The notes below the pieces were generated by a model that ran no database searches, had not been told where the DNA came from, and worked only from the letters and a program-made list of their open reading frames with translations. A program made the translations under genes and the position numbers. This document shows positions 9,483-39,895 of a DNA stretch of 64,000 nt, piece by piece; the first letter of the stretch is position 1, and every line of letters begins with the position of its first letter. Origin of the DNA: Acidaminococcus hominis. GTDB lineage: Bacteria > Bacillota > Negativicutes > Acidaminococcales > Acidaminococcaceae. The stretch is taken from assembly GCF_900291475.1 (NCBI RefSeq), contig NZ_OLMM01000004.1:261613-325612 (forward strand). The letters are read 5' to 3'.

Positions 9483-9488
9483 TAGCTC

Positions 9489-9573
9489 CATCACTAGGGG
9501 CGCATTCGCTGAGAGACCAAAACGGTCGACCCTTTGAACCTGATGCGGTTAGTACCGCCGAAGGAAAGTGGTA
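9489..9573 (+). ncRNA. TPP riboswitch (THI element)
   Basis: Conserved THI-box blocks occur in order: AGGGGCGC, GCTGAGA, ACCCTTTGAACCTGATGCGGTTAGTACCGCC (written here only to show its CCTGAT and GTTAGTACC cores), then GAAGGAAAGTGGT closing the P1 stem with ATCACT. It binds thiamine pyrophosphate. With the terminator that follows, it should shut off thiC when TPP is abundant. Confidence 0.95.
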
Positions 9574-9587
9574 GACTCCGTTTTTTC

Positions 9588-11029: not shown

Positions 11030-12268
11030 TCAGAGTTTTTCGTCAAGCAGCAGGACTGCCAAGTCATTCACATTGGTGCCCGTGGCCCCCGTAATCAGAA
11101 GACCGCCCGTCTTTTCCAGGGCATGGTAGGCGTCATTCTGCTCCAGGACCCCAGGAATGGTAATCCCCTGCTCCAGAAGCTTCGTTTTGGTACTGCCGTC
11201 GGCGTAGCCCCCAGCTGCGTCCGTGGGACCGTCGGTGCCATCGCTGCCAAAGGAAAATACTGCTGCGTTTGTAAGGCCGCTGATGCCTTCTCCGGCGGAC
11301 AGGGCCAATTCCTGGTTCCGGCCGCCCTTGCCCCGGCCGTGGAGATGCACCACCGTTTCCCCACCGGCCATAAAGGCCAGTTTTTTGCCCTTGCCGGCGT
11401 ACTCCCGGGCAATGGCCCCCAGGAAACTGCCGGCTTCTTTGGCCTGACAGGCCAGGCTGGTGGTCAGCACCAGGGTTTCGTAGCCCAGGGCTTCTGCCGC
11501 CGCTTTGCCGGCTGCAGCCAGTTCCGTAACGCTGCCGGTAATGATGGTTTCCACGTTATCCAGCGCTTTAGGCGTTTCCTGCTGGAGGGCAGCGGCTGCT
11601 TCTGGGGACACCATAATCTTGTATTTCCGGATGACCTCCAGGGCCTGCTCACTGGTGCTGGTATCGGGATAAGCCGGACCGGACGCAATCATATCCAGAG
11701 GATCCCCGATAATGTCGGAGAGCACAATGGCGTACACCTTGGCCGGTGCGCACAGCTGGGCAAACTTCCCGCCCTTGACGGCACTGAGGCGCTTGCGGAC
11801 GGTGTTCATGGACACAATGTCCGCCCCGCTGGCCAATAGGTCCGAGGTAATGGCCTGGAGTTCCTTTAAGGGAATCAAAGGCTTTTCAAACAGGGCGGAA
11901 CCCCCGCCGCTGATGAGAAACAGTACCGTATCTTCCGCAGTCAGGCCGGACACCAGGTCAATGGCCCGCTCCGTCGCCTTCAGGGAATTTTCGTCCAGCA
12001 CCGGGTGACCGGCTTCCCAGATTTCCAAAGGCGGCAGCTCGCCCTTGGAGTGGCCGTATTTGGTAATGACAATGCCCTGGGAAATTTTGCCTTCTAAAAT
12101 ATAGTTGGCCGTTTTGGCCATTTGCCAGGCAGCCTTGCCAATGGCCACCAGCACAATTTTTCCTTTGCCAAATTCCTTATGCTGCAGGGCCTTTTCCACT
12201 GCGGTATCGGGCAGGGATGCGGTAATGGCGCTCTGCATGATTTTTTCTGCGTCTGTACGTAACGACAT
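11030..12268 (-). CDS. Glycerate 2-kinase (MOFRL/GckA family; older name hydroxypyruvate reductase)
   Basis: A 412-residue protein with an N-terminal DUF4147 Rossmann-like region (LFLISGGGSALFEKPL near 115-130) and a C-terminal MOFRL domain (GGETVVHLHGRGKGGRNQELALSAG; GSDGTDGPTDAAGGYAD). These motifs mark ATP-dependent glycerate 2-kinases. The reaction makes 2-phosphoglycerate from glycerate. A longer reading frame starts at 12376, but ATG 12268 directly follows GGAGGAATCC and aligns with the usual family N-terminus. It is convergent with thiC and divergent from the mechanosensitive channel gene. Confidence 0.88.
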   Translation of the reverse strand: MSLRTDAEKIMQSAITASLPDTAVEKALQHKEFGKGKIVLVAIGKAAWQMAKTANYILEGKISQGIVITKYGHSKGELPPLEIWEAGHPVLDENSLKATERAIDLVSGLTAEDTVLFLISGGGSALFEKPLIPLKELQAITSDLLASGADIVSMNTVRKRLSAVKGGKFAQLCAPAKVYAIVLSDIIGDPLDMIASGPAYPDTSTSEQALEVIRKYKIMVSPEAAAALQQETPKALDNVETIITGSVTELAAAGKAAAEALGYETLVLTTSLACQAKEAGSFLGAIAREYAGKGKKLAFMAGGETVVHLHGRGKGGRNQELALSAGEGISGLTNAAVFSFGSDGTDGPTDAAGGYADGSTKTKLLEQGITIPGVLEQNDAYHALEKTGGLLITGATGTNVNDLAVLLLDEKL

Positions 12269-13490: not shown

Positions 13491-13509
13491 CAGCATAAAA
13501 AACAGGGGC

Positions 13510-13880
13510 TGTGAAAAAATAAAACTTCTATCGTCGCCTACGGCGACACTTCCTACAGTGGTTCGCGGCTAGCTGCTCAGCTGCGTCCTACGGACTTGCT
13601 TTGCAGGCCGCTATCACATGGCTCGCGTATTCCAAACATCTTTTGGATAACTTATGGCGATGTTTGGACGCGAACGCAACGCTTGCAGGAAGCGTTCTAG
13701 ACCTCTACTGGTCAAGTGACAGAGAAGCGTAGTGCTAATATTTACATACCGAGATTTCATTTCAATACTCGTTCAGCACACGACCAGTATGGGCCTAAGG
13801 CCGGCCCATCCAAGCGTGGAGGGGCTGTCAGTCCGCAGGACTGACTGAGGAAGTTTATTAGATACGGCTATAACGAACAA
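13510..13880. repeat. Dispersed hairpin-rich intergenic repeat, copy R2
   Basis: This copy shares outer edges with R1 (GGGG-x-TGTGAAAAAA on the left, GGCTATAACGAACAA on the right). Terminal hairpins GTCGCC-tac-GGCGAC (left) and CAGTCC-gca-GGACTG (right) are swapped and inverted relative to R1. The central hairpin CCAAACATC/GATGTTTGG with outer CGCGT/ACGCG keeps the R1 orientation, with compensatory base changes. The TACTGGTC/GACCAGTA pair is present and inverted. It sits between convergent genes and encodes nothing visible. Confidence 0.8.
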
Positions 13881-13920
13881 AAAATGGCTTGCGAACTCAA
13901 ACTAGTTCACAAGCCATTTT
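13881..13920. terminator. Terminator-like hairpin after the mscS gene and R2
   Basis: A 10-11 bp stem AAAATGGCTTG / CAAGCCATTTT with an extra inner pairing GAACT/AGTTC is flanked by A and T runs. It could act in either direction. Confidence 0.7.
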
Positions 13921-14008
13921 TCACCCCCCTTTTTTATGTCCGTTTTCCTGGTGTCCAGCGTGCCAGGCCATCGCCTATAGCCTGCTGACCCCACAGCCCT
14001 CCTAAAAA

Positions 14009-14306
14009 GTTCTTACCTTGCAAAAAAAGGTAAGAACCAGGTAAGAAAATTTGAAATCTCAGAACCCGCATAGACACTGGGTTTGCGGCTCCTGTTCTTA
14101 CCTTCTTACCTTTCTTACCTACATATAGATATATAAAGAGAAAAATAAAAAAAATAAAATACCCGTCTATCGTTAATTAATATATATATATATATATATG
14201 GGGCTGTATAAAAATAGGTAAGAAGGTAAGAAAAATAGCGCAGAGCAAGGACTGATGCGGGTTTCCAGTTCTTACCTTATGATTTTGAAAGGTAAGAAGG
14301 TAAGAA
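14009..14306. repeat. Cluster of 11 GGTAAGAA octamers around an AT-rich core
   Basis: The octamer GGTAAGAA occurs at 14029, 14040, 14217, 14225, 14291 and 14299. Its complement TTCTTACC occurs at 14010, 14095, 14103, 14112 and 14269. Three tandem copies at 14095-14119 face two tandem copies at 14217-14232 across a core of A/T runs and an alternating TA stretch (14181-14199). The first pair forms an 11-bp inverted repeat (14009-14037). The arrangement resembles replication-origin iterons or a multi-site protein-binding array. No replication protein gene is nearby. Confidence 0.75.
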
Positions 14307-14408
14307 CTTTTAGTAAAGTTGGTATAAAAAATGGAAGCATTATGTTAAATCAGCTCTTAGGTGGTGCAGTCAAGAAACTGCAAGGCAGCCCCTCCCTGCA
14401 CAAAACAA

Positions 14409-39661: not shown

Positions 39662-39895
39662 AAAAAAAATAACCCGTCCCTGTTATAGGACGAGTTGACT
39701 TCGCGGTACCACCTACATTCTCAATTGCTTGAGCACCTTGGAGGCTTAACGCGCCTTGACGGGCAGGGCTGCTGCACCCTGCCGGCTCCCGGACGACTTC
39801 CAGCGGCTGACGTGGATGCTTGCACCGACCGCACCCTCTCTGCAACGCAGCTTGGCTGTACTCCTTCCGTTCATAGCCATTGGTCATATGATATT
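39662..39895 (-). ncRNA. T-box riboswitch upstream of valS
   Basis: On the minus strand the leader ends with the hallmark T-box sequence AGGTGGTACCGCGAAG. A terminator hairpin AACTCGTCC / GGACGGGTT plus eight T residues follows (39661-39696). The 5' part forms a stem-loop-rich Stem I. A GTC codon in GGAAGTCGTCC is a candidate Val specifier, but the pairing was judged by eye. Uncharged tRNA-Val should stabilise the antiterminator and raise valS expression. Confidence 0.9.

Follow-up and report, generated by a model that had tools for sequence, protein, structure and literature searches.

An intergenic octamer array of Acidaminococcus hominis is very probably an orphan replication origin of a phage or phage-like satellite

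Iteron plasmid origins are built from longer iterons repeated in direct orientation. In the locus described here, which likewise has short repeats and an AT-rich region, 8-bp words stand in opposed groups instead. In the SaPI/PICI origins, which are served by Rep/Cch helicases, an AT-rich region lies between two sets of short iterons (PMC6092414, PMC7581432), as in the window (the whole 64,000-nucleotide stretch of A. hominis DNA that we analysed); SaPI Rep and Cch2 recognise the iterons, which follow the gene, through their C-terminal domains (PMC7581432). The window differs from the SaPI/PICI elements in its iteron word and in that rep is absent, as are an integrase and other island genes nearby. 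PER, a 302-bp noncoding origin element of the S. thermophilus phage phiSfi21, has been described (PMC6356513); the window element is similar in size and is likewise, on our reading, a ~300-bp noncoding phage origin separated from its phage.

Eleven exact GGTAAGAA octamers were confirmed at 14010-14306, as an earlier note on this DNA had reported for ~300 bp, and they start at 14010(-), 14029(+), 14040(+), 14095(-), 14103(-), 14112(-), 14217(+), 14225(+), 14269(-), 14291(+), and 14299(+). Their number is indeed far above chance: local shuffles of the 320 bp averaged 0.04 octamers and never yielded more than 1, the whole window contains 15 GGTAAGAA octamers against 1.39 expected from shuffles, and in the rest of the window no other 8-mer exceeded 4 copies per 300 bp. 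The octamers form four groups around an AT-rich core, with the orientations - + + (outer left), - - - (inner left), + + (inner right), and - + + (outer right); the inner groups, three inverted octamers at 14095-14119 and two at 14217-14232, and the AT-rich core between them were as previously claimed. The TGCGGGTT segments that had been placed on the flanks are real and inverted, but they lie inside the array between the outer and inner octamers, where AACCCGCA at 14063 and TGCGGGTTT at 14256 form an inverted pair. A simple expanded tandem repeat was ruled out by the fixed mixed orientation and by a spacing that is conserved in homologs, and a check of the region revealed no att-like direct repeats besides the iterons. 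The element had no Rfam match at gathering thresholds. Its parts are listed below, with the evidence for each, which includes comparison with homologous origins.

14001 to 14336, plus strand: whole orphan origin block, from the rep stop position to the start of the next phage gene (homology with the second copy and with the G005 origin)
14003 to 14005, plus strand: TAA at the expected, inferred rep stop codon (in homologs the array begins 2-13 bases past the rep stop; the two-copy homology starts CCTAA)
14010 to 14047, mixed strands: outer left iterons 14010-14017(-), 14029-14036(+), and 14040-14047(+) (same positions in L206)
14063 to 14070, plus strand: AACCCGCA, left arm of the conserved non-iteron inverted pair (kept in L207, L214, L209, and L210 despite different iterons)
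14095 to 14119, minus strand: inner left iterons 14095-14102, 14103-14110, and 14112-14119 (L206, L207, and L214 also have three inverted iterons there)
14120 to 14200, no strand: AT-rich core, probable melting site (composition profile; 87% A+T over the best 60 bp)
14217 to 14232, plus strand: inner right iterons 14217-14224 and 14225-14232 (octamer positions and comparison with homologs)
14256 to 14264, plus strand: TGCGGGTTT, right arm of the conserved non-iteron inverted pair (comparison with homologs)
14269 to 14306, mixed strands: outer right iterons 14269-14276(-), 14291-14298(+), and 14299-14306(+) (octamer positions and comparison with homologs)
14313 to 14336, plus strand: leader remnant and beginning of the next phage gene, AAAGTTGGTATAAAAAATGGA (matches L206, L207, and L214)

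A prophage of a genome of the same genus (G005) carries an element that is 67% identical to that of the window (L206/L009; E = 1.8e-14), and every octamer there reads GGTAGGAA instead of GGTAAGAA. The G005 array starts two bases past the stop codon of a gene for a primase-helicase with a DUF927 and an HTH_56 ('Cch') domain (PHROG 8841, DNA primase/helicase), and the element is followed by a 93-aa ORF and then by a DEAD-type helicase. Relative to the rep stop codon, the iteron positions in G005 are 3, 22, 33, 88, 96, 105, 209, 216, 260, 282, and 290, and the window iterons, counted from 14004, lie at 7, 26, 37, 92, 100, 109, 214, 222, 266, 288, and 296; the order of orientations is the same, and after a constant offset of 4 the positions superimpose within 2 bp. 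Homology and shared spacing, the marks of a SaPI/PICI-type origin with a DUF927 Rep, are thus both present.

The iteron order and spacing of the window recur in the prophage origins L206/L009, L207, L214, and L209 and in the viral contigs L217 and L338; L206 is homologous to the window in sequence, and an inner CCCGCA/TGCGGG pair is common to the window and several prophage origins. These prophage and viral origins adjoin rep and use the words GGTAGGAA, ATGTAGGAA, GGTAGA, CGTTAAA, and GGTAAGCA, whereas the window uses GGTAAGAA. Altogether, the G005 prophage and about fifteen other prophages and viral contigs have an array of this kind, each with its own word, behind a related Rep gene, which answers a search proposed in the earlier note. 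Reps related to that of G005 were found in 11 of the 63 genomes searched in the order and also in viral contigs; for this purpose a P-loop pattern search worked better than a Rep-alignment query, which caught a generic primase motif and mainly distant matches. Most Rep loci with downstream DNA to inspect have an array of a private word past the Rep stop (ATGTAGGAA, GGTAGA, TTAGCTAA, CGTTAAA, TGTTAAA, TGTAAGA, TGTAGGA, GGTAAGCA, GTTAGAC, GTTAGAT, GGTTACA, AGATCGCA, or GGGATGAC), as in viral contig L338, where the word is GGTAAGCA and the Rep is homologous; a few Rep loci, such as L341 and L350, have no downstream array. As in the published PICI layout (PMC6092414), the origin in these homologs directly follows the 3' end of the gene for a DUF927-type initiator helicase, which should recognise the iterons through its C-terminal domain.

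A parent phage carrying GGTAAGAA was not found in the viral contigs, and searches of phage and plasmid DNA with the element gave nothing useful. Exact-pattern scans of viral and genome collections for GGTAAGAAGGTAAGAA returned mostly scattered matches, and the multi-copy matches that were checked were mostly simple repeats. In a Flavobacteriaceae MAG (L187, 3680-3843), six GGTAAGAA octamers in mixed orientation lie just past a 416-aa ORF, possibly the origin of an unrelated replicon that uses the same word. Elsewhere, an iteron-like GGACAAA cluster with the same GGAAACCCGCATGG motif stands behind a DUF3987 helicase, a different Rep family (L494, 1200-1850; G002:C1, about 27.2 kb), and the motif CCATGCGGGTTTTCGG occurs alone, without iterons, in the intergenic DNA of L493 (G000:C4:565260) and L495 (G007:C23:149074).

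Natural variants of the Rep point to how the word is recognised. Over their last 115 residues, the L361 and L363 Reps differ at one position outside and seven positions within a single stretch of nine residues in the C-terminal domain (GRYANCTKV versus NKYASHMQI). Their iterons are one base apart (TGTAAGA versus TGTAGGA), and the pair looks like a natural specificity swap. From this close natural pair and a loose trend, a segment of the Rep C-terminal (HTH_56) domain apparently reads the iteron word. The covariation agrees with the published reading of iterons by Rep/Cch2 (PMC7581432) and with the PICI origin layout (PMC6092414).

Phages with such origins are encountered, since a sister species (G008) stores a CRISPR spacer against one. 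Its array (L504, 4154-7778; G008:C1, around 882-886 kb) has 56 repeats (GTCGCCCCCGCAAGGGGGCGTGGATTGAAA) and 55 spacers. Spacer 2 matches an L207-type replication origin, inside the origin itself, at 33 of 35 bases, and spacers 12 and 14 match the same prophages, which are those of sister species. The likeness to phage iterons that had been proposed from the letters alone is therefore borne out by homologous arrays directly 3' of rep genes, superimposed positions, covariation of word and Rep, and a CRISPR spacer on such an origin.

The genome from which the window comes (2.6 Mb, 99.84% complete) has one further copy of the ~315-bp element, at C7:1079763-1080070, in opposite orientation and 87% identical. 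The homology between the two copies runs from CCTAAAAAG (14001) to GTAAA (14317), and that to the G005 prophage origin reaches about 14335; homology between the flanks of the copies was considered and rejected, as these are unrelated outside 14001-14317. Between the copies, 33 of 218 spacer positions and 1 of 88 iteron positions are changed (Fisher p = 7.5e-5), which indicates that constraint acted on the iterons during the divergence, be it in the host or, before capture, in two active phages. The contig C7 ends ~1.2 kb from the second copy, in a frame (L006, about 11160-11287) that resembles the C-terminus of an IS30-type transposase.

No Rep stands beside either copy or elsewhere in the genome: neither a DUF927 domain (at E up to 10) nor a Rep homolog was detected in it, and tblastn searches of the flanks of both copies with Reps and adjacent phage proteins revealed no coding remnant of rep or of the next gene. 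The leader match at 14313-14336 to L206, L207, and L214 was reached in 0 of 300 shuffles for each, and the corresponding match at the second copy is weaker. Because no coding remnant lies beside either copy while the leader and the start of the next gene are kept in the window copy, the retained block corresponds to the intergenic region from the rep stop to the next start. Within the genus, no additional orphan cluster of iterons turned up when two other phage origins and the motif RAACCCGCATRG served as queries; with these few query origins, one motif, and one genome per species, orphan origins occur in 1 of the 9 species searched.

The adjoining genes are housekeeping genes, as had been remarked, encoding an MscS-type channel on one side and a class II dehydroquinase plus shikimate kinase on the other. 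In four related or sister species only about 90-160 bp of DNA separate the mscS and aroK matches, and so the element and the adjoining aroQ either arrived later here or were lost in the relatives. Directly between mscS and the orphan origin, 13497-13921 is a piece of an abundant mosaic intergenic repeat family, with more than 100 matching pieces of 69-95% identity on five contigs of the genome; it has no Rfam match at gathering threshold, and a terminal-inverted-repeat reading of this 13.5-13.9 kb repeat was unsupported in 18 other copies. Ordinary RNA elements of the window are a TPP riboswitch and a T-box leader, at 9486-9583 and 39683-39883.

We conclude that the cluster is very probably the entire intergenic origin of replication of a temperate phage, or of a phage-like satellite, that has a DUF927/HTH_56 primase-helicase (Rep) as initiator; it is now without its Rep and present in two copies. 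By sequence comparison, we have shown homology, a superimposable layout, a phage-specific word that appears to shift with a Rep segment, and no detectable Rep here; because the Rep is absent, we call the locus an orphan origin homologous to the SaPI/PICI type and not a complete replicon. A classical iteron-plasmid origin was rejected: no plasmid-family rep gene lies nearby, about 13.9-14.46 kb contains no match to the DnaA box (TTATCCACA) even with one mismatch allowed, and plasmid records gave no useful match. Most likely the block was acquired by capture, or by retention as a remnant, of phage origin DNA. In the parent phage, as knowledge of the family suggests, the C-terminal domain of the Rep would bind the two opposed iteron sets, Rep hexamers would assemble on them, the AT core would melt, and replication would start in both directions. 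In the present genome the origin would be silent, since no Rep is made, unless a phage brings in a matching Rep. On infection, a phage Rep that reads GGTAAGAA should bind the array and might fire chromosomal replication; the rep gene of such a cognate phage would end just before TTCTTACC...GGTAAGAA.

Why the element was kept admits several explanations, of which the most economical, though we hold it with evenly balanced confidence, is a neutral relic: a prophage or satellite that inserted twice, or once and was then copied, would have decayed to the origin only, which has no present function. The lack of a Rep in the genome, the leader remnant of the next gene beside the window copy, and the commonness of prophages with such origins in the genus agree with it, and a relic of an excised element, as had been suggested earlier, is plausible. 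However, the near absence of change in the iterons relative to the spacers means that divergence was non-neutral in this genome, unless the copies derive from two different active phages. Moreover, the intergenic block that was kept is nearly the same in both copies, with nearly the same ends and no coding remnant, unlike what random decay of prophages would be expected to leave. This also counts against the phage-origin reading itself, as do the absence of a GGTAAGAA parent phage from the viral contigs and the lack of a rep coding remnant beside either copy. The same iteron-only conservation would suit a word-specific decoy kept by the host, in which the chromosomal origins titrate an incoming phage Rep, or are fired by it, and phage replication is lowered. 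Such a decoy has a precedent in the 302-bp noncoding phage origin that gives phage resistance (PMC6356513), and the sister-species spacer against an origin of this type is in line with it. We nevertheless regard it as unlikely: the effect of PER was described as dependent on copy number (PMC6356513), whereas only two chromosomal copies exist here, chromosomal firing could harm the host, and a single species among those searched has orphans.

A small mobile unit, in which the ~315-bp element moves non-autonomously, would suit its perfect 15-bp inverted ends (AAAAGTTCTTACCTT) and its two copies with unrelated flanks, but is quite improbable, because origins that adjoin rep in the homologs are likewise bounded by inverted iterons, no target-site duplication was seen at the two copies, the only ones present, and the window copy has extra phage sequence on its right. 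Still further down, and very improbable, is an array bound by a host regulatory or structural protein and unrelated to phages. Its intergenic location and the conservation of the octamers between copies fit this explanation, which had also been raised before; yet homologs with the same spacing sit in phage replication modules, the two copies have different neighbours, and the four sister species have only the short gap at the site. Nor is the cluster spread over many unrelated loci without a replication gene: it stands at two loci of its own genome, and the copies of relatives stand at rep genes.

An unexplained repeat cluster between housekeeping genes thus becomes recognisable as an orphan phage origin through the replication modules of prophages. 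By-products of the comparison are an apparent Rep-to-iteron recognition segment, taken from natural variants (L361 versus L363), and a CRISPR spacer in which a sister species has stored part of a phage origin. If the decoy explanation were true, the element would be a gene-free phage defence that is invisible to gene-based surveys, a natural, chromosomal, gene-free form of PER-like resistance.
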